Below, one piece after another: positions 7,930 to 32,800 of a stretch of DNA of 33,796 nucleotides (positions are counted from its first letter, which is position 1; every line of letters begins with the position of its first letter). The stretch covers positions 1-33,796 of the forward strand of contig JAFZSR010000122.1 of NCBI GenBank assembly GCA_017619275.1, written 5' to 3'. The notes under the pieces were generated by a model that had not been told where the DNA came from, did not search any database, and saw only the letters and a list, made by a program, of their open reading frames with translations. This stretch comes from Prevotella sp. Lineage in GTDB: Bacteria > Bacteroidota > Bacteroidia > Bacteroidales > Bacteroidaceae. Both the position numbers and the translations under genes were made by a program.

Positions 7930-9249
7930 TCAATCAGTCTTTCCGACGTGCAGCTGGTCCAGCAGCCATGCCTGCCACTCATCCCACTGCTCCTGATACC
8001 AGAAATGGGCGGTTTGCTGATAGGGGCTGAGTGTCTTCGAGGCCGTCACGATATTATAGGTGGCGTAGGCCGTGGTGGGTGGCACCACGTCATCGTTGTA
8101 GCCAAACGAGAACCATCCCGGACAGGTGATGCGGCGTGCGAAGTTCACACCGTCGTAATACCGTGACGTCTCTATTTTGTTACTTTGTTCCTTTGTTACC
8201 TTGTTACTTTGATAAAAGTAGTGCGGCCAACCGCAGGCGACACCCTTCAGCGATGCCGTATGGTCGCACAAGGCAGCATGAACGGCACCGTAGCACGACA
8301 CGCGCTTGTCCAATCCTGCCGTTGCCAGCGAGAGGAAACCGCCCTGACTCGAACCCGTCACGGCCAGATTCTTGCCATCCCACGGCGTGAATTCCTCAAT
8401 ATAGTCAATAGCACGGATGCAACCCAGCACCACCCGCTTGTAGTAGCTCTGGTCGCGGTCGTCCATGCCGTAGTTCCAATAGCCGTTCAGTGCAACGTTA
8501 GCCAGCTGGTCGTAGATGCTCTGCTCCATCGTCACAGGAATGCCATGAATGCCGATTTCGAGAACGATGACTCCCTTCGCGGCAGTCCATGGGTCGCCTT
8601 GATAGGGTCGGACACCGGCTCCGGGAACACGCAGCAATGCCGGATAGCGCCCTTCCTTCACGGGCACGCATAAAATAGCATAGGTACGCGAGCCCCAGCG
8701 CATATTCTGGAAACTCACCTCATAGACGTTCACATCCTTCGTCGACCGCTCGGGCAGCAGCCGCTTCGTAGGTTCCAGCTTTGTCCACCGGGCTTCCTCA
8801 ATGGCTTTCTCCCAGAACGAGTCGAAGTCGGCTGGCATCACGGTCGTGGGTTGCAATTGCTCGGGCGAGAAAGCAGCCGTGCAAGTGCCCGTGTAGTTGC
8901 GACCGTCTACATGCGCCACCACCTTCAATCGGTAGAAGCCAGGCTTTTGCATCTTGCCCTTGTGCTTCATGGTGCCATCCTTGAGCACCACTCCCTGGCG
9001 CTTCTCTGAAGGATACATCTCAGGCCCAGCCTCGTAGTCGACCGACACATTGTCGACCAGCGTGCCCGAACGGCGCACTTCCACCGTAAAGCCGGCCGTC
9101 TCGCCCACGCGATAGTTCCAGTCCTTATGATCGGGTTCCACGGTGACGACGATGTTGTTGCCTCTGATTTGTGCCTTCATGCCGATGGCTGTTGTCAGCA
9201 AAACTGCCAACAACAAAAGGCGAAGTATAGAAACGTTTTTACTGTTCAT
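7930..9249 (-). CDS. Acetyl (mannan/xylan) esterase, CE7-like
   Basis: Secreted alpha/beta-hydrolase of 439 residues. I start it at the ATG at 9249, which opens a normal signal peptide (LRLLLLAVLLTTAIG, cleavage near KAQ). The longer frame to 9432 runs back through the promoter region. An Ig-like N-terminal domain of about 100 residues precedes the hydrolase. The triad is visible as Ser301 in TGSSQGGF, Asp386 in YNDDVVPP and His415 in QTAHFW, in the CE7 arrangement. Residues about 346-358, before YYDGVNFA, are encoded by a DNA repeat that also occurs between genes. As first gene of the run it probably removes acetyl groups from mannan before GH26 attack; the acyl substrate is inferred. Confidence 0.88.
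   Translation of the reverse strand: MNSKNVSILRLLLLAVLLTTAIGMKAQIRGNNIVVTVEPDHKDWNYRVGETAGFTVEVRRSGTLVDNVSVDYEAGPEMYPSEKRQGVVLKDGTMKHKGKMQKPGFYRLKVVAHVDGRNYTGTCTAAFSPEQLQPTTVMPADFDSFWEKAIEEARWTKLEPTKRLLPERSTKDVNVYEVSFQNMRWGSRTYAILCVPVKEGRYPALLRVPGAGVRPYQGDPWTAAKGVIVLEIGIHGIPVTMEQSIYDQLANVALNGYWNYGMDDRDQSYYKRVVLGCIRAIDYIEEFTPWDGKNLAVTGSSQGGFLSLATAGLDKRVSCYGAVHAALCDHTASLKGVACGWPHYFYQSNKVTKEQSNKIETSRYYDGVNFARRITCPGWFSFGYNDDVVPPTTAYATYNIVTASKTLSPYQQTAHFWYQEQWDEWQAWLLDQLHVGKTD
8174..8211. repeat. Intragenic AAAGTAACAAAG repeat in the esterase gene
   Basis: On the minus strand this is a run of near-copies of CAAAGTAA/CAAGGTAA. The same run lies between susD and the first glycan-binding gene at 14735-14769. 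Here it is translated in frame (residues SNKVTKEQSNK) in a surface loop of the esterase. Confidence 0.8.
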
Positions 9250-9308
9250 TTTTGTTTGGTTTAGGTGAATTGTAGAAGGCTTTATGTCAGTAGTCTCATT
9301 AGCCGATG

Positions 9309-9351
9309 CAAATTTACGGCAAAATAATCGAATACGCTGATACTTTTTTTG
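9309..9351 (-). promoter_or_regulatory. Promoter and candidate operator of the esterase/mannanase operon
   Basis: On the minus strand TAAATTTG (9316-9309) matches the Bacteroidota -7 element TAnnTTTG, about 60 bp upstream of the chosen ATG. No good -33 TTTG is present. Instead CAAAAAAAGTATCAGCGTAT (9351-9332) sits just upstream and shares AAAAAAGTATCAG with a site facing the other way at 9494-9510. This suggests an activator-dependent promoter. Confidence 0.55.
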
Positions 9352-9493
9352 CCAAGTCCGACACTTTCTCATAAAATGTAACGAGTCGTTTTTCGCAACA
9401 AAAAGCCCCTTATATGGTGCATTGTGACGCAAAAATTGTTTTTTTCTATTGATAACGGGTGTCTACTCTTTTTTGTTAAAATTGCATCAATGT

Positions 9494-9556
9494 CAAAAAA
9501 GTATCAGTATCGGTTAAATAAATGCTATTTTGGTTGCTTTATTTAAACTATCTTTG
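9494..9556 (+). promoter_or_regulatory. Promoter and candidate operator of susC
   Basis: TATCTTTG at 9549-9556 is a full match to the -7 element and TTTG at 9529-9532 can serve as -33. CAAAAAAGTATCAGTAT at 9494-9510 lies about 38 bp upstream of the -7 box and repeats, inverted, the motif of the divergent promoter. A 5' leader of about 90 nt follows before the susC ATG. The remaining DNA of the 9250-9653 gap is AT-rich, with nothing else I can name. Confidence 0.65.
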
Positions 9557-9653
9557 CACCGTCGAAACCTACTATTATTTTAAACGTGTGTGTGAACGCC
9601 CGAAAACAGTCAGAAATTCTGATAACTAAATAATTTAATCTAACAATTAAAGT

Positions 9654-12941: not shown

Positions 12942-12994
12942 TGTCGATGAAAGATGAAGGAATAACGATGAAACATAAAAGAAAGGAAAGTAAT

Positions 12995-14734: not shown

Positions 14735-14815
14735 GCAAGGTAACAAAGTAGCAAAGTAACAAAGTAACTAGGAATCATAAACTAGAAACTAGGAACTTGA
14801 AACCAGAAACTATAA
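14735..14815. repeat. AAAGTAAC run and CTAGAAAC microrepeats
   Basis: Positions 14735-14769 repeat AACAAAGTA/AGCAAAGTA, the same family that is translated inside the esterase gene at 8174-8211. Positions 14770-14815 are short CTAGAAACT/CCAGAAACT units, which reappear at 19313-19378 just upstream of the second GH26 gene. Confidence 0.8.
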
Positions 14816-14832
14816 AACTCGTAAATTGTGAT

Positions 14833-16206: not shown

Positions 16207-16274
16207 TTCAACTTTTGCAAGAAAGGCATGAAGGGAATAAAAGTCCTGCAGCTGAAGGTAGAACACCCAGCGTA

Positions 16275-16403
16275 GTCCCCTCCTCCGGGGAGGAGGGGTG
16301 CGGGGTGGTAGCGGAACAAAAACGGTCACTACCTATTAAACAAATATGTCGAACATTGTTTTTTCTCTACCACCCCTGGCCCCTCCTTCCAAAAGGAGGG
16401 GAC
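16275..16403. repeat. Inverted pair of 37-bp GTCCCCTCC...GGTGGTAG elements
   Basis: Unit 16275-16311 begins GTCCCCTCCTCCGGGGAGGA and ends GGGGTGGTAG. An inverted copy lies at 16367-16403 (CTACCACCCC to GGAGGGGAC). The pair makes a 129-bp element with 37-bp terminal inverted repeats. Further copies are at 27125-27171 (between genes) and 28354-28390 (translated inside the retropepsin gene). Confidence 0.88.
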
Positions 16404-16431
16404 AACAGGCCGACAACCAGCCGTAGGGCAA

Positions 16432-16513
16432 CAAAGCATTCGTCCCTTTTCTCCCCTTTCACTCCCCTTTAAGCCCTTTAAGCCTTTGGGAAGTGGAGCT
16501 TGCGAAACTTCAG
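16432..16513. repeat. 82-bp repeat, inverted copy of 6527-6610
   Basis: This is the reverse complement of 6527-6610 with few differences. It ends 17 bp before the ATG of the second glycan-binding gene and creates an open extension of that frame (to 16486) which I do not accept as coding. Confidence 0.85.
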
Positions 16514-16530
16514 AAAAAAATAATAGCGAT

Positions 16531-18411: not shown

Positions 18412-18467
18412 TGCGTAACCAGTGAGTAACTGAAGTTTCTGAAGTTAATGAAGTTAAAGAAGTTAAA

Positions 18468-18547
18468 GAAGTTAAAGGACAACGGTCCTGCTACTTGGAA
18501 TTTCTCTCAGAGGTTTCAACCAAAAGGGGGTATCGTCCTTTAACTTC
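18468..18547. repeat. GAAGTTAAAG repeats with inverted arms
   Basis: Repeated GAAGTTAAA units (18429-18480) end in GAAGTTAAAGGAC, which is matched in reverse by GTCCTTTAACTTC at 18535-18547. More CCTTTAACT units and a small CGGTC/GACCG hairpin follow to 18592. It looks like another local palindromic element; no coding content. Confidence 0.75.
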
Positions 18548-18612
18548 CCAAACGGTCGGAGACCGTAACTTCCTTTAACTCCTTTAACTCCCGAAACATA
18601 AAGTATCATTCT

Positions 18613-18644: not shown

Positions 18645-18664
18645 ACCTTCAACACTTCAGAACA

Positions 18665-19378: not shown

Positions 19379-19401
19379 TAAATATGCTTACTCAAATCCT
19401 C

Positions 19402-20889
19402 ATGAAATCATCCTCTCTTTTCCCCTCCCTACGGGGGAGGGGCCAGGGGTGGGGTTTCCTCATCGTCTGTTGCAGCCTTGCCGCAACCCTCACCTCTTGT
19501 GGTGGCAGCGACGACCCAGAGCCCGAGCCCACGCCGACGCCCAGCGTCACCGTCTCGCTCTCCTCGCAGAGCATTGCCGAAGGTGCTGAGGTCGACGCCA
19601 AGTCGGTCTCTGAGCTGCAGCTCACCTATTCCGTTGCCATCAAGGTGGCAGCCACGGCCAACATCACCCTCAACGGCACGAAGGTCACCGCCACGCGCAT
19701 GACGAACAACGTGGCCGGCGTGCAGATTCCCCTCTCGCTCGAGGAGGGCACCGACTACACGCTCATCGTCCCCGCAGGCTCCATCGTCGCCTCCAAGGAT
19801 GCGTCTGCCACCGCTCCGGAGTTCAAGCTGAACTTCAAGACCAAGGCAAAGGCGCAGCCTGTGAACCCCGACATCAAGGCAACGCTGGTCAATGGCAACG
19901 ACGCCGCCCAAAAGCTCTACGACTTCATGCGCGAGCAATATGGCCAAAAGGTCATCTCCAGCGTGATGGCGAACGTGAACTGGAACAACGAAATTGCCGA
20001 GAGCGTCTATAAGCTCACGAAGAAATATCCCGCTGCGGTGTGCTACGACTTCATCCACATCTGCTACTCACCGGCCAACTGGATCGACTACACCAACATC
20101 ACGCCCGTGAAGCAGTGGAGCGACGCCGGCGGTATCGTACAACTCATGTGGCACTTCAACGTGCCGAAGAGCGAAGGTTCCACCGACGTCACCTGCACAC
20201 CCTCGGAGACCACGTTCCTTGCACAGAATGTTCTTACCTCCGGCACATGGGAGAACCGTTGGTTCTACGACCAGATGGACAAGGTCGTCGCCACCCTCTT
20301 GAAACTGCAGGATGCCGGCATCGCCGCCACTTGGCGACCCTTCCACGAGGCTGCCGGCAATGCCACTGCCAAGCAGCAGGCTTCCTGGACGAAGTCGTGG
20401 TTCTGGTGGGGCTACGACGGCGCCGAGACCTATAAGAAGCTCTGGACAACCATGTTCAATTACTTCAAGGAAAAGGGCGTGAAGAACCTCATCTGGATAT
20501 GGACCACGCAGAACTACAACGGCGATGCCGCCACCTACAACCAGGACACCGACTGGTATCCCGGCGACGCCTATGTCGACATCGTAGGCCGCGACCTCTA
20601 TGGCTACACCGCCCAGCAGAACCTGCAGGAGTTCACCGAGATTCAGGCCACCTATCCCACGAAGATGATTGCCTTGGCAGAATGCGGCTATGGCACCTAC
20701 GACAACAAGCGCGTCGACTTCGCCAACATCTCCGACTGCTGGAACACCGGTGCCCGCTGGAGTCACTTCATGGTGTGGTATCAGGCTGGCCAAGGCTCCA
20801 CCAACTCCATGATGACCGACGGCTGGTGGAAGGATGCCATGCAATGCTCCGATGTCATCACCCGCGACCAGCTGCCCTCGCTGAAGTAA
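19402..20889 (+). CDS. Beta-mannanase lipoprotein with Ig-like domain, GH26
   Basis: Secreted beta-1,4-mannanase, 495 residues from the ATG at 19402; the ATG at 19384 is an alternative. Lipid-modified Cys33 (LAATLTSC) is followed by an acidic, Pro-rich linker, a bacterial Ig-like domain (about residues 48-150) and the GH26 barrel (about 155-495). The acid/base is Glu316 in WRPFHEAAGN and the nucleophile Glu427 in IALAECGYG; WFWWGYDG and WIWTTQNY line the cleft as in GH26. It is probably the surface endo-mannanase of the locus, complementing the GH26 at 6818. Residues about 8-18, in the n-region of the signal, are encoded by a GGGGAGGGG-type repeat. A terminator follows 30 bp after the stop. 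Confidence 0.93.
   Translation: MKSSSLFPSLRGRGQGWGFLIVCCSLAATLTSCGGSDDPEPEPTPTPSVTVSLSSQSIAEGAEVDAKSVSELQLTYSVAIKVAATANITLNGTKVTATRMTNNVAGVQIPLSLEEGTDYTLIVPAGSIVASKDASATAPEFKLNFKTKAKAQPVNPDIKATLVNGNDAAQKLYDFMREQYGQKVISSVMANVNWNNEIAESVYKLTKKYPAAVCYDFIHICYSPANWIDYTNITPVKQWSDAGGIVQLMWHFNVPKSEGSTDVTCTPSETTFLAQNVLTSGTWENRWFYDQMDKVVATLLKLQDAGIAATWRPFHEAAGNATAKQQASWTKSWFWWGYDGAETYKKLWTTMFNYFKEKGVKNLIWIWTTQNYNGDAATYNQDTDWYPGDAYVDIVGRDLYGYTAQQNLQEFTEIQATYPTKMIALAECGYGTYDNKRVDFANISDCWNTGARWSHFMVWYQAGQGSTNSMMTDGWWKDAMQCSDVITRDQLPSLK
19422..19454. repeat. CCCCTCCCTACGGGGGAGGG repeat inside the mannanase signal region
   Basis: This 33-bp member of the CCCTCC-loop-GGAGGGG-n-GGGGTGGGG family is translated in frame as a Leu-Arg-Gly-Arg-Gly-rich segment ahead of the hydrophobic core of the signal peptide. 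Related copies lie at 27325-27440, 28441-28508 and 31691-31757. Confidence 0.85.
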
Positions 20890-20918: not shown

Positions 20919-20960
20919 ACATGTCCCGCCACTCCCTCGCGCTTGGCGGGACATGTTTTT
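20919..20960 (+). terminator. Rho-independent terminator of the plus-strand mannan operon
   Basis: ACATGTCCCGCCA (20919-20931) pairs perfectly with TGGCGGGACATGT (20944-20956) around a 12-nt loop and runs into TTTTTG. It lies 30 bp after the mannanase stop codon. Confidence 0.93.
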
Positions 20961-20965
20961 GTAAA

Positions 20966-21176
20966 AGTAATGCTCTGTAGCCTCTAAAGCAATGCTCTAT
21001 GGCTTTAAAGTCAATGCTCTGAGCGTCTAAAAGCAATGCTCCTGGCCTCCAAAGTCAACGCTTTGAGCCTCTAAAGTCAATGCTCTTGGCTTCTAAAGTC
21101 AATGCTCTGAGCGTCTAAAGTCAATGTTCTTGGCCTCCAAAGTCAATGCTTTGAGGCTCCGAAAGCAATGCTTTTG
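20966..21176. repeat. 22-bp tandem repeat array, about 10 copies
   Basis: Units start at AATGCTCT-like words at about 20969, 20990, 21013, 21035, 21057, 21079, 21101, 21123, 21145 and 21167. The unit is AATGCTCTnGGCCTCTAAA followed by GTC or GC. Spacing is 21-23 bp with considerable drift. It has no spacers and no coding content. It separates the mannan locus terminator from the helicase promoter. From 21177 to 21290 the DNA is AT-rich without a feature I can name. Confidence 0.9.
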
Positions 21177-21300
21177 CTAAAACATAATAATTTAATTACT
21201 GCTTTGTTCCAATTTGTTTCTACATTTCTTACTGCTTTTCTTTATCACTTATTTTTTCATAAAAAAGTGGTAGGATGTCGGTATTTAAGAAGAAAATGTG

Positions 21301-21308
21301 TATCTTTG
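21301..21308 (+). promoter_or_regulatory. -7 promoter element of the helicase gene
   Basis: TATCTTTG matches TAnnTTTG and is followed by CACC exactly as in the susC promoter. It lies 67 bp upstream of the chosen ATG. The -33 region is weak. It supports the start at 21375 rather than the longer open frame beginning at 21168. Confidence 0.6.
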
Positions 21309-21374
21309 CACCAAATACCCTTTAACACAAGAGACATAAACCCTTTGACTCAAGCAAAACAAACAGAAGACTGT

Positions 21375-24300
21375 ATGGACAGCAAGAATATGATAGAAGC
21401 AAAGAACGTGAAGGCGGAGTTCCTGCCGTGTCTGAATTATGCAATGGCCGTGAACGGCCAGAAGTGTCTGGAATTTATAGAAATCAGCAATCCCACTGCC
21501 GACGACTGGCATGGTGTGCAGGTGAAGGTGAGCGGCGACTTGATTGCCGACGCCTCGTACATCATCGACACGGTGCCGGCAGGGATGACGGTGCGCGTGA
21601 CCGACCTCGACGTGAAGCCCGACCTCGACAAGCTGCGCGAGATGACGGAGAGCGTGGAGACGGCCTTCACGCTGACGGTAGTAGGAGCAAGAAGTGTGGG
21701 GCAAGGGGCAAGAGAATGCTCTTCGCTGGGTGAAAACGCAAATGGACAAGACTCATCTCTTGCCCCTTGCCCCTCGCCCCTTGCCCCCCTCTCCCTCTCT
21801 TACCCCCTGCGCCTGCTGGCCTTCGACGAATGGCCGGGCGTGGGCGTGCGACCGGAGATGCTCGCAGCCTTCGTCACGCCGAATGCCCCGCAGCTGTCGC
21901 AGGTGAAGATGAATGCCGCCGCGATTCTTGAGAAGCTCACCGGCAGCGCTGCCCTCGACGAATACCAGACGCAGGACCCGAACCGCGCCCGCGCACAGGT
22001 GGCCGCCGTCTACGAGGCGTTGCGGGGCGAGGGACTCGTCTACGCTGCACCGCCAGCCAGCTACGAGAAGACAGGCCAGCGCGTGCGACTTGTAGACCGT
22101 GTGCTCGACGAGAAGCTCGGCACCTGCATGGACCTGTCGTTGCTCATGGCATCGGTGCTGGAGTCGTGTGGCCTGCATCCGCTGCTCGTGCTGCAGAAGG
22201 GACATATGTTTGTGGGCTGCTGGCTCGTAGACCAATATGCCGCCTATAGCGTGAGCGACGACTGGTCGTTCCTCTCGAAGGCTACTGCCAACGGCGTCAG
22301 CCAGATGGTGCTCCTCGAGGCCACGGCACTGGCCAGCTCGGACGCCATCTCGTTTGAGAAGGCTGTGGAGATGGGTGAGAAGCACCTTGTTGCCGAGCAA
22401 GACAAGTTCGTGCTGTTCTGCGATGTGTATCGCAGCCGAATGGAGGGCGTCAGGCCGTTGCCGATGAAGGTGAACGGCGTGTGGCAGAATGCAGGGCTGG
22501 AGCACGAGCAGGTCACCAAGGGGCTGAAGGAGGTGCAGACGGCCGAGCTGCAGCTGCAGAATGGCGGACAGGTCACCCGCCAGCAGATTTGGGAGCGCAA
22601 ACTCCTGGATTTCTCGCTGCGCAACAACCTGCTGAACCTCCGCACGGGCCGGCGTGTCATTCCGTTTGTGTCGTTCGATATCGACGTGCTCGAAGACCAC
22701 ATCTTCGACCGCGAAGACTATAGCATGCAGGCCGTGCCGGTGAAGAAGCTGCTGAAGCCCGACGAGTTCGGCATCTACGACTCGCGCCTCTACAAGGACG
22801 AGTTGCAGCAGCTGGTGTCGGAGGACATCAAGCACAACCGCCTGAACGCCTACCTCTCGGCAGACGAGATGGCGAGCACGCAGAAGTTCCTCTACCGCGA
22901 GTCGCGAACGGCACTGGAAGAGAACGGTGCCAACTCGCTGTACATGGTGTTTGGCCTGATGCGCTGGTATGAGAACGAGAAGAGTGTGCGCCCGCGCTAT
23001 GCACCGCTGTTGCTCATGCCCGTGGAGCTGGTGCGCCGCAGCGGTAATAACTATGTGGTGCGCCGTCGCGATGAAGAGATGACCATCAACACCACGCTGG
23101 TGGAGATGCTGCGCCAGCAATACCAGATTGACCTGAAGGGACTGCAGCCGCTGCCCGAGGACGAGAGTGGTGTCGACGTGCGGGCGATACTCGCCACCGT
23201 GCGCGCTCAGCTGGCCTGCCAGCCGCGCTGGGATGTGGTGGAGGAGGCCATGCTCGGTCTGTTCTCGTTCAACAAGTTCGTGATGTGGAACGACATACAC
23301 AGCAATGCCGAGAAGATGCGCCGTTCGCCCATCATCGAAAGCCTCTTCCAGAAACACTGGGTAGGCCATGACGGCGTTCAAAGCGACGGAGTCGCGGTTC
23401 AAGGTTCAAATGCGCCTGCGGCGCGTTCAAAAGTTCAAGAAGGCCCTTCGGGCGTTCAAGGTTCAAATGGCCCTTCGGGCGTTCAAGAGGCAAATAACTC
23501 AACTTCTCCGCTCGACCCGCAGGGGCGCTTTCGTAGCGAAGCGGAGAAAGAACCTCTCAACTCCTCCGCTCGACCCGAAGGGGCGCTTTCAGAGCGAAGC
23601 GGGGAAAGAACCTCTTCCTCCGATGCCCGCCACATAGACCTTCACGTGGCACCACATGAGTTTGCAATTCCCGTGGACGTGGACTCTTCGCAGATGGAGG
23701 CCGTGGTGGAGTCGGGCGAGGGCCGCAGCTTCATCCTCTATGGTCCTCCGGGAACGGGCAAGAGCCAGACCATCACCAATATGATTGCCAACGCCCTCTA
23801 CCACGGGCGCCGCGTGCTGTTTGTGGCTGAGAAGATGGCTGCCCTCGAGGTGGTGCAGAAACGACTGAAGAAAATCGGCCTCGATCCGTTCTGCCTGGAG
23901 TTGCACTCCAACAAGGTGACGAAGACGCATCTGCTGCGCCAGCTGCAACAGACGCTCGACCTCACACGCATCAAAGACCCCGAGCAGTATGAGCAGGCAT
24001 CGAAGGAACTCTTCGAGCAGCGCCAGCAGCTCACGGGCTACATCCGCCTGTTGCACAAGAAGCAGGTATCGGGGCTGTCGCTCTACGACTGCATCTGCCG
24101 CTATGAGGGCATCGAAGGTGAGGGTATTCCGCCCTCCGCACACTTCGTGAACGGCCTCACCGATAGTAAGCTGCAGGAGGCTGCCGAGAAGATTGAAACC
24201 CTCGACACGGTGTTCGCCATCACCGGACCCGTTGCCCGCCACCAGTTGCAGGGCCTGAACATCTACGACCCGTCGCAGCAGACGCAGTCGCAGATTGCCG

Positions 24301-26888
24301 AGTGGCTCACGCAGCTTGCCTCGCAGGTGGAGACCACCGACAAGCTCATCAACCTCATCAACGGACAGGCAGGGTTCAAGCAGCCCCACTCGCTCAACGG
24401 AGCCCGTTGGGCAGAGCAGCTCATCGCCAAGCACGATGCGCTGGCCGGGCAGTACACCGAGGGAATCTTCGCACAAGATCCGCAGCAGCTGCGCGCGCAG
24501 TGGGCTGCCTTATGTGGAAAATGGTTCCTGCCGCGCTTCTTCGCCAAGCGGTCGTTCATGAAAGGCCTGCGCGCCTTCCGTGCCGACATGGGCGAGGGTG
24601 ATGTGGAGACGCTCTTCGGACAGCTCGACGCCTTCCGTCAGCAGCTGCGCGAGGGAGGTCTGCAGGCGCTTCCCATGGTGCCACCGGCAGCCATCCAGGC
24701 TTGCCGCGACTTGCTGCAGGGCGTGGAGAAGATGAAGGCGGTCTGCGACTTCGACGACGAGAACCTCGACACGCTTGCCCGTCTGATTCCACAGTGGCAG
24801 CAGGCACTGGGCAGCAGTCGCGACTGGGCGCAGTGGTGCATCCGCAAGCGCGAGCTGCAGGAGCTGCATCTGGAGAAGGTGGTCGACTACATGAACCATG
24901 CCAGCACCACCGGTCATGCTGCCGCACAAGCCATGCTGAAGGGCACCTATAAATATATGGCCCTGCAGATTGTGGACAGCGAGCCACAGCTGCAGATGTT
25001 CAACGGCCTGCTCTTCGAGGATGCCATTGCGAAATATCGCGACATGGCCAAGCAGTTCCAGGAGCTCACGAAGAAGATGCTCTACTGCAAGCTCGCTGCC
25101 AACGTGCCGTCGCAGGCGCTGAAGCCGACAGCCATCACCGAGCTGGGCATCCTGAAACGCTATATCGCCACCAATGGTCGCGGCGCCACCATCCGACACA
25201 TCATGGACCAGATTCCGACGCTGCTGCCGAAGCTCTGTCCGGTGATGCTGATGAGCCCCATCTCGGTGGCACAGTTCATCGACCTCGACCAGCCGCCGTT
25301 CGACATCGTATGCTTCGACGAGGCGTCGCAGATGCCAACGTCGGAGGCTGTGGGCGCCATCGCCCGTGGCAAGGCACTCATCTGTGTGGGCGACCCGAAG
25401 CAGATGCCGCCGACGAGTTTCTTCGCCACCAATGCCGTGGACGAGGAAGAGGCCGACATCGACGACATGGAGAGCATCCTCGACGATTGCATCACGCTGT
25501 CGCTGCCCGCCCGCTATCTGACGTGGCACTATCGCTCGAAGCACGAGAGCCTGATTGCTTTCTCCAATGCACAGTACTACGAGAGCAAGCTCTACACGTT
25601 CCCATCGGTCGACGACCGTGCGTCGAAGGTGCAGCTCATTCCCATCGACGGCACCTACGACTATGGTAAGACGCGCTGCAACCGCGCGGAGGCCGAGGCT
25701 ATCGTGAAGGAGGTGGTGCGTCGCCTGAGCGACGATGAGCTCGCCAAGCGCAGCATCGGTATTGTGTCGTTCAGCAAGGTGCAGCAGAACCTCATCGAAG
25801 ACCTGCTCACCGACGAGCTGGCGAAGCATGCCGACCTGGAGCGCAAGGCTTACGACGTGGAGGAGCCCATCTTCATCAAGAACCTCGAAAACGTGCAGGG
25901 CGATGAACGCGACGTCATCCTCTTCTCGGTGGGCTATGGTCCCGACAAGACGGGAAAGGTGTCGATGAACTTCGGGCCGCTGAACAATTCCGGTGGTGAG
26001 CGACGCCTGAACGTGGCGGTGTCGCGTGCACGCTACGAGATGATGGTGTTCTCAACGCTGAAGCCTGAGCAGATTGACTTGCGCCGCTCGAGTGCGCTGG
26101 GCGTGGCAGGACTGAAGGCATTCCTGGAGTTTGCACGCAACGGACGCATGGTGGTGAGTGCCGGACAGGTGAAGGCGCCGACCGAACATGCTGAAATCAT
26201 CGATGCCGTGGCCGGTGAGATTCGCAAGATGGGCTACGAGGTGGATACCTCCGTGGGACGCTCCGCATTCAAGATTGACCTGGCCGTGCTCGACCCGAAG
26301 AACGATCAGAACTACCTGCTCGGCATCATCTGCGACGGCACGCGCTACTACGAGACGAAGACCGAGCGCGACCGCGAGATCTGCCAGCCTGGCGTGCTGC
26401 AGGGGCTCGGCTGGAAGCTCATGCGCCTGTGGTCGGTGGACTGGCTGATGAACAAGGAGGCGGTGTTGGATCGCATTCGCAAGGCTCTCGAGAAGCCGGA
26501 GGAGCCCAAGCCTGCCAGCGCTCCGAAGGTCGCTGCCGTGAAGGGTGGCATCGAGCATGCAGCCCCGCTGCCCTTTGCCGTGAGCAAGGATGAGATTGTG
26601 AAGGAGAAGGAGGTGACGATGTCGCCGGCACTGGAGAAGGCGGTGAAGAAGTATCAGAGTGCTGTCGACAAGATGCCGGAGGGCGATATCGAAGAATATG
26701 CCCGCTTCATCATCCGTCAGCAACTGGCGGTGCCTCTCGACGACATGAAACGACAGTTCGCCAAGGCGATGGGCTACACTCGTCGCACCCAGCAGACTGA
26801 CATCGCCCTCGAAACGGCTGTCGCCATGCTCATCGATAAAGGTGAACTCACGGAGAAAGACGGAAACATTACGACAGTTGATAGTTGA
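21375..26888 (+). CDS. DUF4011 superfamily 1 helicase with Vsr/MTES_1575-like nuclease domain
   Basis: Multidomain protein of 1837 residues. In order: an N-terminal beta domain; a transglutaminase-like fold with Cys251 in LGTCMDLS and His277 in KGHMFVG; DUF4011 at about residues 400-670 (LLDFSLRNNLLNL); an SF1 helicase with Walker A GPPGTGKS near 790, Walker B FDEAS near 1315, NVQGDERDVILFS and LNVAVSRAR near 1545; a PD-(D/E)XK-like nuclease at about 1608-1690 (FKIDLAV, GIICDGTRYY, RDREI, LGWKLMRLWS); and a C-terminal DUF3320-like helical segment. The same order is reported for single-gene antiphage proteins (DUF4011-helicase-Vsr, Hhe), so defence is a reasonable inference. Two repeat-derived insertions are translated in frame (residues about 108-134 and 668-747). 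It has its own promoter and no partner gene. Confidence 0.88.
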   Translation: MDSKNMIEAKNVKAEFLPCLNYAMAVNGQKCLEFIEISNPTADDWHGVQVKVSGDLIADASYIIDTVPAGMTVRVTDLDVKPDLDKLREMTESVETAFTLTVVGARSVGQGARECSSLGENANGQDSSLAPCPSPLAPLSLSYPLRLLAFDEWPGVGVRPEMLAAFVTPNAPQLSQVKMNAAAILEKLTGSAALDEYQTQDPNRARAQVAAVYEALRGEGLVYAAPPASYEKTGQRVRLVDRVLDEKLGTCMDLSLLMASVLESCGLHPLLVLQKGHMFVGCWLVDQYAAYSVSDDWSFLSKATANGVSQMVLLEATALASSDAISFEKAVEMGEKHLVAEQDKFVLFCDVYRSRMEGVRPLPMKVNGVWQNAGLEHEQVTKGLKEVQTAELQLQNGGQVTRQQIWERKLLDFSLRNNLLNLRTGRRVIPFVSFDIDVLEDHIFDREDYSMQAVPVKKLLKPDEFGIYDSRLYKDELQQLVSEDIKHNRLNAYLSADEMASTQKFLYRESRTALEENGANSLYMVFGLMRWYENEKSVRPRYAPLLLMPVELVRRSGNNYVVRRRDEEMTINTTLVEMLRQQYQIDLKGLQPLPEDESGVDVRAILATVRAQLACQPRWDVVEEAMLGLFSFNKFVMWNDIHSNAEKMRRSPIIESLFQKHWVGHDGVQSDGVAVQGSNAPAARSKVQEGPSGVQGSNGPSGVQEANNSTSPLDPQGRFRSEAEKEPLNSSARPEGALSERSGERTSSSDARHIDLHVAPHEFAIPVDVDSSQMEAVVESGEGRSFILYGPPGTGKSQTITNMIANALYHGRRVLFVAEKMAALEVVQKRLKKIGLDPFCLELHSNKVTKTHLLRQLQQTLDLTRIKDPEQYEQASKELFEQRQQLTGYIRLLHKKQVSGLSLYDCICRYEGIEGEGIPPSAHFVNGLTDSKLQEAAEKIETLDTVFAITGPVARHQLQGLNIYDPSQQTQSQIAEWLTQLASQVETTDKLINLINGQAGFKQPHSLNGARWAEQLIAKHDALAGQYTEGIFAQDPQQLRAQWAALCGKWFLPRFFAKRSFMKGLRAFRADMGEGDVETLFGQLDAFRQQLREGGLQALPMVPPAAIQACRDLLQGVEKMKAVCDFDDENLDTLARLIPQWQQALGSSRDWAQWCIRKRELQELHLEKVVDYMNHASTTGHAAAQAMLKGTYKYMALQIVDSEPQLQMFNGLLFEDAIAKYRDMAKQFQELTKKMLYCKLAANVPSQALKPTAITELGILKRYIATNGRGATIRHIMDQIPTLLPKLCPVMLMSPISVAQFIDLDQPPFDIVCFDEASQMPTSEAVGAIARGKALICVGDPKQMPPTSFFATNAVDEEEADIDDMESILDDCITLSLPARYLTWHYRSKHESLIAFSNAQYYESKLYTFPSVDDRASKVQLIPIDGTYDYGKTRCNRAEAEAIVKEVVRRLSDDELAKRSIGIVSFSKVQQNLIEDLLTDELAKHADLERKAYDVEEPIFIKNLENVQGDERDVILFSVGYGPDKTGKVSMNFGPLNNSGGERRLNVAVSRARYEMMVFSTLKPEQIDLRRSSALGVAGLKAFLEFARNGRMVVSAGQVKAPTEHAEIIDAVAGEIRKMGYEVDTSVGRSAFKIDLAVLDPKNDQNYLLGIICDGTRYYETKTERDREICQPGVLQGLGWKLMRLWSVDWLMNKEAVLDRIRKALEKPEEPKPASAPKVAAVKGGIEHAAPLPFAVSKDEIVKEKEVTMSPALEKAVKKYQSAVDKMPEGDIEEYARFIIRQQLAVPLDDMKRQFAKAMGYTRRTQQTDIALETAVAMLIDKGELTEKDGNITTVDS
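21698..21773. repeat. Inverted-repeat element inside the helicase gene (insertion 1)
   Basis: GGGGCAAGGGGCAAGAGA at 21698-21715 is matched perfectly in reverse at 21756-21773, with a 40-bp loop. More CCCCTTGCCCC words follow to 21790. The insert is translated in frame as a Gly/Ser/Pro-rich linker in the N-terminal domain. Confidence 0.88.
23376..23613. repeat. Composite repeat inside the helicase gene (insertion 2)
   Basis: The first part (23376-23487) is built of GTTCAAGGTTCAAATG words and two CCCTTCGGGC hairpins. The second part (23501-23613) is two tandem copies of a unit containing CTCCGCTCGACCCG, GGGGCGCTTTC, AGCGAAGCGG and GAAAGAACCTCT. The second family recurs in reverse between genes at 26899-26943 and 27210-27256. 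All of it is open in frame, encoding about 80 low-complexity residues between DUF4011 and the helicase motor. Confidence 0.88.
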
Positions 26889-27282
26889 TAGTTGATAGTT
26901 CTTTCTCCGCTGCGCTACGAAAGCGGCAAAGCCGAGCGGAGAGTTATGTCACTTTGTTCCATGACTTTTGTCACGACTTGGCAGAGTTGATGCGAGCATC
27001 ACTCTGCGCTCGCTGCTCCAAAAGTTCTTTCTCCGCTTCGCTCTGAAAGCCTTCCGGATAGCGTTACACCCAACGGTAGGGGCAGACCCCCGTGTCTGCC
27101 CGAACAATGACGAGCTCCCAGCGTGGTCCCCTCCTCCGGGGAGGAGGGGTGTCCGAAGGACGGGGTGGTAGTGAAACAAAGGTGACTGGGGTCGAGCGGA
27201 GAGTTTAGAGTTCTTTCTCCGCTTCGCTACGAAAGCGCCGCTTCGCGTCGAGCGGATAGTTGATAGTTTAGAGTTGATAGTT
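26889..27282. repeat. Repeat-filled gap after the helicase gene
   Basis: The gap is a patchwork of families seen elsewhere: TTCTTTCTCCGC...GAGCGGA elements (26899-26943, 27024-27060 partial, 27210-27256), a copy of the 19231-19306 element in reverse (26948-27026), the GGGGCAGACCCCCGTG unit (27076-27102), and a GTCCCCTCC...GGTGGTAG element with an extra TCCGAAGGA (27125-27171). Short TTGATAGTT direct repeats flank both ends. I see no gene, and no typical terminator other than these hairpins. Confidence 0.85.
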
Positions 27283-28779
27283 ATGATTACCCGATGCGGC
27301 TTCAAGGCATTTCTCACCCACGTCACCCCTCCCTTTAGGGAGGGGCTGGGGGTAGGCTCTCTCCCCTCCCTATGGGGGAGGGGTTGGGGGTGGGGCCTCC
27401 TTTTCTCCCTCCCCTTTTGGGGAGGGCTGGGGTGGGGCTTCCCTCTCTCTGCCCAGCAGCTACATCGCTATAATCCCAATTTCGGCTTGTCGGCAGAGCA
27501 CTTCTGCGACACCATCAGCATCGACGTGGAGGACGACCTCATCCTCGTACCCGTGCAGATAGATGACAAGGTGTATCGCTTCTGCCTCGACACGGGTTCC
27601 AGTCAGGGCATGGTGTATGCCAATAGCAACATTCCTGATCTCGTGCCTCTGGGAAACATCATCTCCCGCGATGCAAACAATCATGTCGACACGGTGCAGG
27701 TCATACAGCTGCCGCCCTTCACTCTTCCAACGAATAGCTCTCAACTCACCATCAGCGGCTATGTGGCATCGCTCATGCCGCGACACTCCATCAGCGATAA
27801 GTATGATGCCATTATCGGCTTCGACCTCTTCAATCGTGGCATCTGTGCAAAAATCGATAAGCAGCGGGGTTTACTGATTCTCACCGATGAGAAGAAACTC
27901 TTCCGGGCCGAGGAAAAGGTGGGCTACACGCTGCGATACAAACTGAAGTGGTTCGTGCCTTATCTGTATGTGAGTCCCTTCGTCAGGCATACCGACGAGG
28001 CTCTCTTCGACACGGGGGCACCGCTGTTCTACACGATGAGCCGCGAGAGTTTCGACGAGCATCTGGCCTCCGACCTCGCCAACCTGCACAAGAACCTCGG
28101 GTCCGGCATTGAGCGACAGGTGGAAGGGCGTGCCGAAGGACATCTCACGCTCGGTGGCTTCGGACTCGAGAAGAAAGACGAAGTGGTGTTCCTGCATCTC
28201 GACCGGTTGAAATGGGGCGACTTCGCATTCACCGACCTGCACACCATCACCACGCAGGGAGCCTCGAAGATTGGAGCGAAACTCCTCGACTTCGGCAGCG
28301 TCATCATCAATCCCTTCCGCAAGCACATCACCTTCCAACCATATCCCGCTGCAGTCCCCTCCTCCGGGGAGGAGGGGTTAGGGGTGGTAGCGAATCCCTC
28401 ATTCGCGACGGAGGGCAAGGGGTTAGGGGTGGTAGCGAAACCCTCCCCCTCGGGGGAGTTGGAGGGGGGCTCTTCTTCCCTCCCTACGGGGGAGGGTCAG
28501 GGTGGGGCTCCTTCCTCCGTCCGCGTTGGCAACAAACAGTTCAGCGTGGCCTTCGTTCCCTACAAGGGACAAGCCGTCGTAGGACTCATCTGGGAAGGTA
28601 GTCCCCCTTATAAGGCGGGCATGCGACAGGGCGACGTCATCTTGCAAATAGACCAGCGTCCCATCACCTCCTTCGCCGACTTCCAGCGCTTTGGCTTCAT
28701 CAAGGGCGAGCGTCACCGCTTCCGCCTCCGCGATGAGCAAGGCATCGAGAAAATAGTAGAATGTATCATCAAAGAATAA
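27283..28779 (+). CDS. Retropepsin-like aspartyl protease with C-terminal PDZ domain
   Basis: Predicted exported or membrane-linked protease of 498 residues from the ATG at 27283. Two aspartic protease motifs are visible, Asp103 in CLDTGSS and Asp243 in LFDTGAP, giving a single-chain pepsin-like pair. A PDZ domain occupies about residues 430-498 (GLIWEGSPPYKAGM, RQGDVILQIDQRPI). Two segments are repeat-derived: residues about 14-53, which include the only candidate signal peptide (LLFSLPFWGGLGWGFPLSA before QQ), and residues about 358-409, a linker between protease and PDZ. Without them the protein would be near 405 residues. It is followed 25 bp later by a membrane-bound transcription regulator, so a signalling role is possible. 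Substrate unknown. Confidence 0.83.
   Translation: MITRCGFKAFLTHVTPPFREGLGVGSLPSLWGRGWGWGLLFSLPFWGGLGWGFPLSAQQLHRYNPNFGLSAEHFCDTISIDVEDDLILVPVQIDDKVYRFCLDTGSSQGMVYANSNIPDLVPLGNIISRDANNHVDTVQVIQLPPFTLPTNSSQLTISGYVASLMPRHSISDKYDAIIGFDLFNRGICAKIDKQRGLLILTDEKKLFRAEEKVGYTLRYKLKWFVPYLYVSPFVRHTDEALFDTGAPLFYTMSRESFDEHLASDLANLHKNLGSGIERQVEGRAEGHLTLGGFGLEKKDEVVFLHLDRLKWGDFAFTDLHTITTQGASKIGAKLLDFGSVIINPFRKHITFQPYPAAVPSSGEEGLGVVANPSFATEGKGLGVVAKPSPSGELEGGSSSLPTGEGQGGAPSSVRVGNKQFSVAFVPYKGQAVVGLIWEGSPPYKAGMRQGDVILQIDQRPITSFADFQRFGFIKGERHRFRLRDEQGIEKIVECIIKE
27325..27440. repeat. Three GGGAGGGG-type repeats at the start of the protease gene
   Basis: Three tandem members of the CCCTCC-loop-GGAGGGG-n-GGGGTGGGG family lie here (CTCCCTTTAGGGAGGGGCTG, CCTCCCTATGGGGGAGGGG, CTCCCCTTTTGGGGAGGG). 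They are translated in frame as Gly-Trp/Gly-Leu-rich sequence at the N-terminus of the protease. Confidence 0.88.
28354..28508. repeat. Composite repeat between protease and PDZ domains
   Basis: A perfect-length 37-bp GTCCCCTCC...GGTGGTAG element (28354-28390) is followed by a partial second copy and then a 68-bp element (28441-28508, CCCTCCCCCTCGGGGGAGTT onward). The last element also lies inside the DUF2723 gene at 31691-31757, where it is read in a different frame. Confidence 0.9.
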
Positions 28780-28804
28780 ACCTCAACTTCTCAACATCAA
28801 CCCT

Positions 28805-29521: not shown

Positions 29522-29583
29522 TCTCTTCTCCACTCGCCCCGTGACGGACGAGGGTAAAGCACAAGCTTTGGCCCAATCATATT

Positions 29584-29760
29584 ATTTATCAAGAATTAGA
29601 GAATTAGAGAATTTCTCTGCATGAGTGGGAATTAAAAAGAATTTGAGAAGAAATTGCAAGCAATTTCCTGTTTCCTTGCAGTCATTCTCGTCTCTTGCGG
29701 CGAATTCTTATCAATTCATTTGAAGAAAAAAATTCTCAAATTCTCTAATTCTTGATAAAT
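29584..29760. repeat. 177-bp element with 30-bp terminal inverted repeats
   Basis: The left arm 29584-29613 (ATTTATCAAGAATTAGAGAA...) and the right arm 29731-29760 are inverted copies with one mismatch over 30 bp. The interior holds a small palindrome GAAATTGCAAGCAATTTC and no ORF. MITE-like in shape, though I see no clear target-site duplication. The flanking bases 29522-29583 hold nothing recognisable. Confidence 0.8.
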
Positions 29761-29783
29761 AAAAAAACTCCCACGAAGTGGAT

Positions 29784-29842
29784 TTGTCAGACAATTGTCA
29801 GACTCTTTTTTCGGCTGACAATAGGTAAAGGTTGTACCTTTG
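29784..29842 (+). promoter_or_regulatory. Promoter of the DUF2723 gene with TTGTCAG sites
   Basis: TACCTTTG at 29835-29842 is a full TAnnTTTG match. TTGTCAGAC occurs twice in direct order (29784-29792 and 29795-29803), and CTGACAA at 29815-29821 is the inverted core, at the place expected for a -33 element. This looks like an operator cluster. The ATG at 29847 begins 4 bp after the -7 box, so the transcript would be nearly or fully leaderless. Confidence 0.55.
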
Positions 29843-29846
29843 CCGC

Positions 29847-32800
29847 ATGAAACGATTCGCTTTTGATTATCGAAGTGCCGATACGGCTATGGGATGGCTG
29901 GTATTTGCCATCGCCGCTTTCACGTATGTTTCTACCTTGGAACCCACCGCCTCGTTTTGGGATTGTCCGGAGTTCATCCTGAGTGGATATAAACTGGAAG
30001 TGGGTCATCCGCCTGGAGCACCGTTTTACATGCTTGCCGCCAATGTCGCCTCGCAGTTGGCAGCTGACAAGACCCAGGTGGCTTATATGGTGAACCTCAT
30101 GAATGCATTGCTGTCGGCAGCAACGGTGATGTTCCTCTTCTGGACAATTACTCATCTCGTCCGGCAGCTCTCTCCGTGCGAAGCACATCCCAACCTTTCT
30201 AAACCCTCTCAATTTGCCCCGCAGGGGTTGCTGGCAGGCTTCGTCGGCGCACTCATCTATTGCTTCTCCGATACGTTCTGGTTCTCGGCTGTTGAGGGCG
30301 AGGTGTATGCCTTCTCGTCGTTCTTTACTGCCATCGTATTCTGGCTCATCCTGAAGTGGGAGCAGCATGCCGACGAGCCTCATGCCGACCGATACCTTGT
30401 CCTCATCGCCTACATGACGGGTCTCTCCATCGGTGTGCACCTTCTCAACCTGCTCTGCCTGCCCTCCATCGTCTTGGTATGGTACTACCGCCGACACCCT
30501 GATGCAACACTTGGTGGGTCGCTCAAGGCGCTGGCGGTGTCGTTCCTTCTGTTGGCTGGCGTGCTTTATGGTGTCATCCCCGGCATTGTGAAAATTGCCG
30601 GTTGGTGTGAGCTGCTGTTTGTCAATGTGCTGCACTGCCCTTACAACACAGGCGTCTACATTTATGTCGTACTTTTGTTTCTGGCTATTGCGTCGGGCCT
30701 TTGGCTCACATTGCGTCGCGGCAAACGACTTTGGAACACAGCTCTTCTCTGCTTGCTCATGCTCGTCATTGGCTATAGCAGCTATGCAGTCATCCTGATT
30801 CGTTCTGCAGCCAATCCGCCGATGGACCAGAACTCGCCCGACGATGTCTTCACACTCGCAAGCTATCTCGCCCGCGACCAGTATGGCCAGCGTCCGTTGT
30901 TCTATGGCCAGGCTTACACGTCGTAGCCGGTCTATGAACCTGTCGCAGGTTCCAATATGATGCGCATGAAACTCAAGAAGGGCGCTCCCGTATACAAGCG
31001 AAAGCCCGCATCGCCCGGCAATGGCCAGCAGCGAGACGAATACTATGTTGCAGAGACGCAGGATAGAATTGTGTATGCACAAAACATGCTGTTCCCGCGC
31101 ATGTGGGACTCGCAGAAAGCGGAGGCCTATGAACAGTGGATGGGTGGTGTCAGCTGCCGGATGGTGCCTTACGACTATGGGGGTGAACGGGTCAATGTGA
31201 AGATGCCTACGCAATGGGAGAACCTGCGCTTCTTCCTGTCCTATCAGTGTAACTTCATGTACTGGCGCTACTTCATGTGGAACTTCTGCGGACGTCAGAA
31301 CGATGTGCAGGGACAAGGTGAACTTGAACACGGCAACTGGATAACGGGCATTCCGCTACTCGACGACCTGCGGCTTGGCAACCAGTCGTTGTTGCCCGAC
31401 GACTTGCGCAATAACAAAGGACGGAATGTATACTTTGGCTTGCCATTGTTGCTTGGTCTCCTCGGCCTTTTTTGGCAAGGGCTGCGACGGGGGCAGCGTG
31501 GCATCCAACAGTTCTGGGTGGTGTTCTTCCTGTTTTTCATGACGGGGCTCGCCATTGTTGTCTACCTCAACCAGAACCCACTGCAGGTGCGCGAACGCGA
31601 CTATGCCTACGCCGGCTCCTTCTACGCCTTCGCCATCTGGTGCGGCCTCGGCGTCGCCGCCCTCAACAACCTGCTCCTCTCCCTCCCTCTCCCTCCCCCT
31701 CGGGGGAGTTGGAGGGGGACTCTTCTCCCTTCCCTGCTGGGGAGGATAGGCGTGGGGCTTATCCCTCTCCTCATGGCTTCGCAGAACTGGGACGACCACG
31801 ACCGCTCTCATCGTTTTGCTTGTCGCGACTTCGGGCGAGACTATCTGGAGTCATGCCAACGCGACGAGGACCCAACCTCTGGAGATGAAAGTAGGGGCGG
31901 ACACCCTATCCTTTTCTGCGATGGTGACAACGACACGTTTCCGCTCTGGTATAACCAAGAAGTAGAGGACGTGCGCACGGATGTGCGCGTGTGCAACCTT
32001 AGTTATTTACCTACCGACTGGTACATCGACCAGCAGCGACGGCCCAATGCCAATGCGCCTGCACTTCCAATCCCTTGGCAGTCGGCCGACTATGCAGGCG
32101 ACAAGCGTAACTTCATACCGATACAACCTGAGTTGCGACAGCAGGTGGAGGACTTCTGCCAGCAACATCCTGACGAAGCACGGCAGCAATTCGGTGACGA
32201 GCCGTTTGAATTGCGTAACATCCTGCGACACTGGGTGTGCAACAGCGATCCGTCGATGCAGGTCATCCCAACTGATAGCATCTATCTGCGCATCGATAAA
32301 CAGGCGGTGCGCGAAAGTGGTATGATGGCTCCCGACGGCCGGTCTGCTGCCATGCTCACCGATGAGGAGATTCCTGACCGCATGGAAATCTCGCTGAAAG
32401 GCTGGCGCGGATTGCACAAGGGGCAGCTGGCCTTCCTCGAGACGCTTGCCAATGCCAACTGGCGACGTCCTGTCTACGTCTGTTCCTCCGTACCCGCCAA
32501 CCATTATCTGAATCTCGACGAATATCTTACCCTCGAAGGCATCGCCGAACGCGTCACGCCCTTCCGTCATCTGCCTGACGAGGTGCGCGTAGATACTCGT
32601 CGCACCTATCAGAATCTCATGCATCGTTTTCGCTATGGCGGTCTCAGTCGTCCCGGACTCTACCTCGATCCTACCACCGTGAACATGTGTTGTCGCATGC
32701 GTCTCTCCTTCGCACAGTTGGCTCTGCAACTGCTGAAGGATAATCCAGAAAAAGCCCTAAAGGTGTTGCAGCGGTGTGATCACGAACTGCCTGCCTACAA

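Follow-up and report, generated by a model that had tools for sequence, protein, structure and literature searches.

In-frame hairpin repeats within proteins of Prevotella: a probable case of REPIN- or MITE-like repeats surviving in flexible linkers

Short hairpin repeats lie in open reading frames within a range of unrelated Prevotella proteins, and they are probably REPIN- or MITE-like elements that persist in flexible linkers as long as they leave the frame open. An earlier note had described repeat families shared between the gaps and the proteins of one stretch of DNA, an observation that is confirmed as real and as larger in extent than was then seen. The stretch, called here the window, comprises 33,796 nt of Prevotella sp. 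(assembly GCA_017619275.1, contig JAFZSR010000122.1, forward strand). All seven repeat segments are in open frames where the note had placed them, none breaks a frame and, as it had also said, the coding repeats sit in linkers, loops or signal regions. The host genes and repeats are the following.

7930..9249, minus strand: acetyl xylan esterase host gene (Pfam AXE1, ORF)
8174..8214, minus strand: tandem microrepeat that encodes an esterase loop (copy search, relatives)
14736..14768, no strand assigned: inverted copy of the esterase microrepeat between genes (copy search)
16273..16311, plus strand: intergenic F1-type hairpin (F1 profile)
16366..16405, minus strand: intergenic F1-type hairpin that pairs in inverted orientation with 16273-16311 (F1 profile)
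19384..20889, plus strand: GH26 mannanase host gene with a lipoprotein-like N-terminus (ORF, Pfam)
19420..19456, plus strand: F1 hairpin in the mannanase N-terminus (F1 profile)
21168..26888, plus strand: DUF4011/AAA helicase host gene (ORF, Pfam)
21684..21787, plus strand: first helicase insert, an imperfect inverted repeat of about 29 residues (relatives, copy search)
23376..23490, plus strand: second helicase insert, hairpin-like first half (relatives)
23491..23613, plus strand: second helicase insert, second half, two tandem F2 copies (copy search)
26890..27263, minus strand: intergenic stretch with three F2 copies (copy search, profile)
27126..27174, plus strand: intergenic F1-type hairpin (first F1 profile)
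27283..28779, plus strand: retropepsin-like/PDZ host gene (ORF; both Pfam matches below curated cut-offs)
27323..27440, plus strand: three F1 hairpins in the retropepsin N-terminal region (F1 profile, copy search)
28350..28510, plus strand: F1-type hairpins forming a 50-55-residue insert ahead of the PDZ part (relatives, copy search)
29832..33092, plus strand: TMEM260-like (DUF2723) gene, two ORFs split by an in-frame TAG at 30924-30926 (ORF, Pfam, relatives)
31687..31765, plus strand: F1-type hairpin pair in the DUF2723 gene (relatives, copy search)

Copies of the segments were sought in the window, in 36 other stretches of its own genome and in four stretches of the relative G071 (E<=0.01); division of the second helicase segment into two made eight test stretches. 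Seven of these, covering all seven coding segments, have DNA matches elsewhere, against a background of 0 to 0.1 matches per stretch from 20 mononucleotide shuffles. The N-terminal retropepsin stretch has 17 matches and the second one eight, the mannanase hairpin has nine, both genic and intergenic, the F2 half of the second helicase insert has five, in the intergenic stretch 26890-27263, and the esterase repeat has two, both at 14736-14768. The other half of the second helicase insert gave no match in any of the DNA searched. The first helicase insert has no copy in the own-genome sample and two in one G071 stretch, which are intergenic by synteny, and the DUF2723 repeat has a single match, across 55 nt of the retropepsin insert, and no intergenic one. 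Within the own genome, the intergenic kin claimed for the coding repeats are consequently seen for five of the eight stretches and missing for the last three (helicase 21684-21790 and 23376-23490, DUF2723 31687-31765). Palindromes, likewise, describe six of the segments, which are hairpin-like, but not the esterase segment, a tandem microrepeat with a unit of about 8 nt in which no palindrome is apparent by eye. F2 is confined to the contig of the window in a whole-genome search, with copies no more than 4 kb apart. No Rfam family reaches its gathering score in the window, and a known structured RNA was rejected as the identity of the repeats.

Alignment of the host proteins with orthologues, which the earlier note had proposed, found the repeat-encoded residues missing from relatives, with insertion accounting for only part of the cases. 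Both helicase inserts (19 aligned rows, representing 12 genes) and the insert in the middle of the retropepsin (24 orthologue loci) are true insertions, whereas the esterase and DUF2723 repeats replace loops of similar length: relatives of the esterase carry an unrelated loop at the repeat site, and the DUF2723 hairpin pair stands in place of a loop and a hydrophobic stretch (24 orthologue loci in each case). Repeat DNA makes up the N-terminal region in the other two cases. The retropepsin hairpins lie downstream of both possible start codons, and the mannanase hairpin lies downstream of every possible start codon and upstream of the hydrophobic/Cys part, and F1 seems partly to form the signal peptide there; 13 of 24 mannanase orthologue loci were aligned, among which comparable N-termini are few. 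The TAG of the DUF2723 gene falls outside the repeat, as previously stated, and because this stop interrupts the gene, DUF2723 is weak evidence for translation.

The main family, F1, is a GC-rich hairpin some 37 nt long, with a stem of 5-11 bp, mostly 9-10, and a GGGGTGGG-type tail. It often occurs as an inverted dimer with a spacer of 20-99 nt, an arrangement that is REPIN- or MITE-like and in which the inverted arms can be seen. F1 is spread genome-wide, and a profile count of the kind that had been suggested, made on a sample, extends the phenomenon beyond the window: 59 F1 hairpins were found in a 554-kb sample of the own genome (E<=0.1, overlapping matches merged), 23 of them within 15 predicted genes. 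Five of the stretches sampled were chosen as bearing paralogues of window genes and the rest are the first 20 kb of contigs taken by number. Genes were called with a simple codon-usage script, for which the coding fraction is low (0.645) in genome G016. The genic share is 39%, less than random landing predicts for a sample that is 83.5% coding. With the refined profile the window holds three in-gene F1 hairpins, compared with 1.3 per 33.8 kb in the rest of the sample. This count leaves out the copy at 28441 and the weaker ones in DUF2723, which the first profile had picked up, and it places the N-terminal retropepsin copies between genes, since the gene caller put the start of the retropepsin gene farther downstream.

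The F1-bearing genes, among them those for UvrA, DnaG, XseA and MiaB, fit curated families, several of them carrying the copy between domains or just outside them, and in 14 of the 15 each copy is flanked by 50 or more host residues. The inserts in TerC and in a CbiC fusion are absent from aligned relatives. In MiaB and in one protein of genome G141, alignment shows the repeat as a replacement of similar length; together with the esterase and DUF2723, these sites count against simple insertion.

Across the genus F1 was found in 89 of 120 genomes, with counts per genome capped near 56, and these include the one-contig genomes G016 and G141, in the latter of which four of 15 sampled copies (E<=0.05) are in genes. 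This spread bears on whether repeats within genes are an assembly or binning artefact of metagenome data, as might be suspected of a source assembly of 127 contigs that is 85% complete, with a 92% inverted repeat at the window ends. Such an artefact, which the note had named as grounds for refutation, is very unlikely, given that the repeat-bearing frames remain open, that F1 occurs in the two one-contig genomes and in genes of one, and that one in-gene F1 dimer is common to two separate assemblies. The tetranucleotide composition of the window is like that of the other contigs, which speaks against a foreign or misbinned contig.

All six classes of orientation and phase are present among 60 in-gene F1 copies. 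A single hairpin leaves on average 4.98 of the six frames open, compared with 3.44 for random intergenic 37-mers. The five '+-' clusters of the own genome have one or two open frames of six, in-gene '-+' clusters two or three, and random 100-mers a mean of 1.5. The two kinds of dimer differ by orientation and spacer but by stops only in part, and stop content only partly explains the orientation rule of F1 clusters. Altogether 48 inverted dimers were sampled in four genomes (E<=0.05 outside the own genome, overlapping matches merged). The stretches of genome G083 were mostly picked around F1 matches, so that its counts cannot be read as densities; G083 dimers also carry weight in the figure of 17/32, for which p is 2.4e-4 once one of the two dimers shared by descent is dropped. 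Dimer partners are more alike (0.83-0.89) than F1 copies on different stretches (0.69-0.75), and in two species dimer spacers reappear in different genes.

These features suggest how the repeats may have come to reside in proteins. Many Prevotella genomes harbour short GC-rich hairpin repeats, the F1 dimers of which appear to spread as units. With single hairpins free of stops in most of the six frames, landing in a gene would often keep the frame open, and copies would persist given an intact frame and a flexible linker, loop or N-terminal stretch, where they are presumably translated and nearly neutral for the host protein. The XseA hinge, the UvrA linker and the esterase loop hold different repeats in different species; such linkers may be so tolerant that different repeats have entered them across species.

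A lesser but substantial probability attaches to a process in which DNA repair fills the linkers, through template switching or microhomology copying of nearby or abundant repeats, whether palindromic or tandem, into breaks and without dedicated transposition. It would suit the sites with replacements of similar length, the tandem microrepeats in the own esterase loop and in the UvrA linker of genome G140, and the local distribution of F2. It would also suit a helicase-like gene, 85% identical between the own genome and G083, one site of which holds F1 in G083 and another palindrome in the own genome. F1, in contrast to F2, gives no sign of local copying past 250 nt in three of four genomes: same-stretch copies further apart than this resemble one another no more than copies from separate stretches do, except in G016 (p 0.0085). 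The recurrence of dimer spacers in unrelated genes likewise argues against the repair process. No target duplication was found at F1 sites, the empty sites compared being too distant in DNA to show one.

If F1 were a true REP/REPIN family it would be moved by a RAYT (Y1 transposase), as its inverted dimers, its high copy number and the presence of Y1_Tnp matches in 73 of 120 genomes might suggest. This is improbable, since F1 lies near only one of 31 Y1 loci (the best 30 of the genus and the own one), since Y1 is found in 30 of 44 F1-rich genomes (at least 20 copies) and 43 of 76 others (p 0.25), and since GT[AG]G and CGTC are each missing from the hairpin foot, within 2 nt of the stem, in 58 of 59 copies. 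The single Y1 match of the own genome sits, by eye, among another repeat. Movement by this transposase is hence unsupported by locus, genome and foot-tag counts, and no moving enzyme linkable to F1 was found among the 31 loci. Still less probable is a functional role, of the peptide or an RNA hairpin, for which the repeat-encoded residues were selected. At another site of the helicase-like gene, the own genome and G083 share an F1 dimer that is 114/118 identical, above the 85% identity of the gene itself, although a recent transfer, or conversion of one copy by another, is another possible explanation. A single selected peptide is unsupported by the use of all orientation and phase classes, relatives manage without the insert, and in one predicted XseA structure the insert is disordered (pLDDT below 50). 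REPIN- or MITE-like repeats retained in flexible linkers remain the preferred explanation; against it stand the shortfall of in-gene copies, the part of the orientation rule that stops leave unexplained, the replacement sites, the over-long linkers with no match (below) and the failure to find a target duplication or a moving enzyme.

Coding palindromes were known before, and the Prevotella case is a variant of that phenomenon. The earlier note had cited Rickettsia palindromic elements (RPEs) as the known precedent, which holds for palindromes in frame in proteins, but intragenic REPs, tnpA-REP genes and MITE fusions are precedents too. According to PMC3733652, REPs occur inside genes, uvrA included, in several species, and recB of two Xanthomonas species carries different REPs at about the same site. 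Like F1, these GTAG/CGTC REPs are hairpins of 20-40 nt with repair genes among their hosts, and their in-gene dimers, a form also seen in F1, code for 20-30 residues. Unlike them, F1 is tagless in 58 of 59 copies and belongs, in Prevotella hosts, to a family common to many species, and in three proteins several kinds of repeat fill one linker. F1 shares with REPs and REPINs the form of a many-copy short hairpin, often an inverted dimer, but not the GT[AG]G/CGTC foot. With RPEs, as described in PMC2229807 and PMC10969869, it shares apparently mobile palindromes that lie in frame within conserved proteins of unrelated kinds and are missing from relatives; RPEs are 105-150 bp long and are reviewed as coding for a conserved peptide, whereas F1 is used in all phases and on both strands. 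PMC6006769 describes in-frame REPs within tnpA-REP genes (subclass 2.4) of Cyanobacteria and Bacteroidetes, again in-frame repeats with Bacteroidetes among the hosts; there the repeat lies in its own transposase gene, whereas F1 is found in numerous unrelated genes and could not be linked to a transposase. PMC2229807 reviews MITE-protein fusions; in it, Correia elements and MITEs similarly have an open-frame form in genes and a stop-rich form that is almost only intergenic, and part of a signal peptide comes from a Yersinia MITE, a situation that F1 seems to repeat in the mannanase; unlike these, F1 comes without a shown target duplication or terminal motif. The MITEs of Porphyromonas gingivalis are treated as non-coding (PMC5771137), and PARCEL is a different coding palindrome (PMC2996958). 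In the open-licence literature searched, no paper on palindromes within Prevotella proteins was found.

Coding palindromes are thus frequent and replicated in a gut genus that is abundant and has many sequenced relatives, so that natural pairs of the same protein with and without a repeat are numerous (80 XseA genes alone). Such pairs allow one to test the acceptance of 10-80 extra residues, the evolution of linkers by repeat capture, and the means by which hairpin repeats are copied where a transposase cannot be found. Annotators should be aware that GGAGGGS or TPSPSP stretches in these proteins can be repeat DNA rather than conserved motifs.

Among over-long linkers of XseA, UvrA and the esterase, 11 of 20 match DNA of unrelated loci (nine of 18 without two own-genome linkers chosen as F1-bearing), compared with 42 of 400 control segments of the same genes, which may include unremoved homologues; the other nine have no match in the 3.07 Mb of DNA searched. 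The XseA linkers were identified by pattern in 59 of 81 loci. It is conceivable, if rather doubtful, that a few linkers are standing landing pads, filled and refilled by any repeat that is common in the species while the gene itself changes more slowly, as the two sites of the helicase-like gene in the own genome and G083 would illustrate. Fusion of neighbouring genes by stop-free hairpins is conceivable too. If both ideas were true, selfish DNA would steadily supply linkers and fusion proteins. An M49 peptidase may be fused in this way with a DNA-alkylation repair protein, the two being separate ORFs in G016, and so may CarA with CarB, where the sole ATG, GTG or TTG found after CarA ends and before the CarB fold belongs to a repeat spacer.

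The window corresponds to contig C22, one of 127 in a genome of 3.59 Mb, and its host proteins are those named in the earlier note, an AXE1 esterase, a GH26 mannanase, a DUF4011/AAA helicase, a retropepsin-like PDZ protein (whose aspartyl-protease and PDZ matches both fall under the curated cut-offs) and a TMEM260-like (DUF2723) protein. The repeats were said to be translated in frame, and all seven coding segments are indeed open throughout and match DNA elsewhere at E<=0.01, shuffles giving almost no matches. That the same families also fill gaps between genes held for five of eight stretches (the second helicase segment being split in two), which matched intergenic DNA of the same genome, but not for the other three. 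The sole match of helicase 21684-21790 is an intergenic stretch of the relative G071 and that of the DUF2723 segment is the retropepsin gene. The second helicase segment has no DNA match elsewhere at E<=0.01 in its first half, 23376-23490. For the mannanase repeat and the N-terminal retropepsin repeats, all in-frame ATG, GTG and TTG codons before the homologous part sit upstream, so that the repeats would be translated if the proteins are made.

G071 contains most of the window as two collinear blocks, with the DUF2723 locus separate, and in comparison with it the helicase is longer by about 29 and about 75 residues and the retropepsin by about 50-55. The first helicase insert is absent from G071 and from all eight homologues whose alignment covers the site, the second from all 12 homologous genes, including a second copy in the same genome, and 23 of 24 retropepsin orthologues pass the site without an insert, the remaining one ending there. 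The proposed insertion into proteins whose relatives lack these residues is thus clear for both helicase inserts and the mid-retropepsin insert, but the esterase and DUF2723 cases are replacements: twelve repeat-encoded esterase residues occupy the place of about ten in most of 24 orthologues, and in DUF2723 the repeat DNA takes the place of a loop and a hydrophobic stretch.

The main family, F1, is a GC-rich hairpin of about 37 nt, often present as an inverted dimer. A profile seeded with the window copies and refined on the genome was run on 553,721 bases (15% of the genome) and found 59 hairpins, of which 23 lie within 15 predicted genes. Since this 39% compares with a coding fraction of 0.835, F1 is depleted in genes against chance, yet common there for a hairpin repeat. 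In 14 of the 15 host genes every copy is flanked by at least 50 host residues. Hosts include UvrA, MiaB, XseA, GH3, GH43, an M49 peptidase and CarA-CarB, together with DnaG, which has three tandem copies, and a ModF-like ABC protein with F1 between its ABC domains.

F1 matches occur in 89 of the 120 genomes searched, this one included. The one-contig genomes G016 and G141 have at least 55 and at least 52, and the one-contig G024 and G069 have none with the F1 model. In 400-kb samples, 4 of 15 copies in G141 and 2 of 17 in G016, both close to the C-terminus, lie in genes; in G083, sampled mostly around F1 matches, 29 of 74 do, in 11 genes. F1 separates the TP_methylase and CbiC domains of a fused G141 enzyme and the APH and RapZ domains of a G083 protein, and lies inside TerC, a methylthiotransferase and a hybrid two-component protein of G083. 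Alignment to a single relative apiece gives clear insertions for TerC and the CbiC fusion, an insert with a further length change beside it for the APH-RapZ linker, and replacements of similar length for MiaB and a protein of G141.

Several repeats may fill one linker. XseA of most of 80 relatives has a short hinge ahead of the RGGG motif; all 80 are titled Prevotella or Prevotellaceae apart from one 'uncultured bacterium', and many titles point to ruminant gut samples. The hinge has about 80 additional residues of F1-type DNA in this species, an F1-related insert in the assembly RUG13587 and unrelated stretches in other XseA genes. The RUG13587 AlphaFold model (mean pLDDT 81, pTM 0.59) places insert residues 216-259 below a pLDDT of 50. 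The UvrA linker carries a microrepeat in G140 versus F1 in this species; a third repeat is common to G121 UvrA and RUG12665 XseA, and three genomes (G121, G143 and G118) have a long esterase loop, with no match for that of G143 elsewhere in the DNA searched. Among over-long linkers of these three proteins, 11 of 20 match DNA of unrelated loci as against 42 of 400 control segments; without the two from this genome, picked for F1, the figure is 9 of 18 (p 6e-5). The RUG030 XseA locus shares 26-27 identical bases with parts of the window retropepsin and DUF2723 repeats. G022 UvrA (L182) and RGIG9954 XseA (L217) have a common repeat-encoded stretch, KYDYNQG..GNH.SHLSS, with DNA 88-91% identical.

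Orientation matters within genes, which, of 48 inverted dimers, hold 17 of 32 '-+' ones (the signs marking orientation) but 0 of 16 '+-' ones (p 2e-4). The '+-' spacers are of a single kind, rich in TAA/TAG, in 13 of 16 cases (4/4 here, 9/9 in G083). Stop codons account for this rule only partly, because one or two frames are still open in the five '+-' clusters of this genome. Single hairpins average 4.98 open frames of six, as against 3.44 for random intergenic 37-mers, and the 60 in-gene copies represent all six orientation/phase classes, which together favours selection for an open frame rather than for a peptide. A tolerance model for F1 in proteins is well supported.

As to how copies arise, F1 may have moved by unit copying, or linkers may have been filled by template-switch repair. 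Dimer spacers recur, as expected of unit copying: two other genes, both in G083, have one similar to that in this genome's CarA-CarB junction. Because of this, and because dimer partners resemble each other more than copies from different stretches, the sequences suggest that dimers travel as units. Template-switch repair is favoured by the replacements, the microrepeats and the local cluster of F2, the second family. The 31 Y1 loci examined gave no transposase link to F1, 58 of 59 copies lack the canonical REP foot, and no target duplication is demonstrable at F1. The only Y1_Tnp match of the genome (L181 1000-2060, contig C62) lies, by eye, amid copies of a different repeat, with AATCCGCC/GGCGGATT-like ends. 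F2-like DNA may extend beyond this genome, since a 111-aa open frame of another species (G028:C36:345053-345196) shows a 60% match to the F2-encoded part of the window helicase.

Copies may also turn over. A helicase-like gene 85% identical between this genome and G083 has a common F1 dimer (114/118 identical), and at a second site F1 in G083 versus another palindrome here. Two open frames cross F1 copies:
L161:10470-13145, minus strand, M49 peptidase and alkylation-repair protein
L158:6341-9310, minus strand, CarA and CarB
In G016 the M49 gene stops and a separate alkylation-repair frame follows. The CarA-CarB frame crosses an F1 dimer; between the CarA end and the CarB fold the only start codon falls in the spacer of that dimer. 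Judged by their reading frames, both are putative fusion proteins.

Earlier work describes REPs within genes, including repair genes and uvrA, and one case, recB of two Xanthomonas, where the REPs differ but occupy roughly the same position (PMC3733652); reviews treat RPE and MITE fusions (PMC2229807, PMC10969869), and in-frame REPs are reported within tnpA-REP genes, Bacteroidetes being among the hosts (PMC6006769). What is new, as far as the literature searched shows, is the F1 family, its spread across the genus (backed by one-contig genomes), the orientation rule, and the occupation of the same linker by several repeats in three proteins.

Other features of the window are as follows:
3-192 and 33128-33317, the two arms of a 190-nt inverted repeat (92% complementary) at the contig ends, probably where the assembly broke
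2509-2578, a 10-nt tandem array (CTAGGCTTTC-like) entering the 3' end of the minus-strand gene 2559-3872
20946-21187, a 22-nt tandem repeat array directly upstream of the long helicase ORF and extending into it; the true start may lie further downstream than that of the long ORF
30924-30926, an in-frame TAG dividing the DUF2723 gene, which has long uninterrupted frames in G071 and in two paralogues of this genome (C23, C85)
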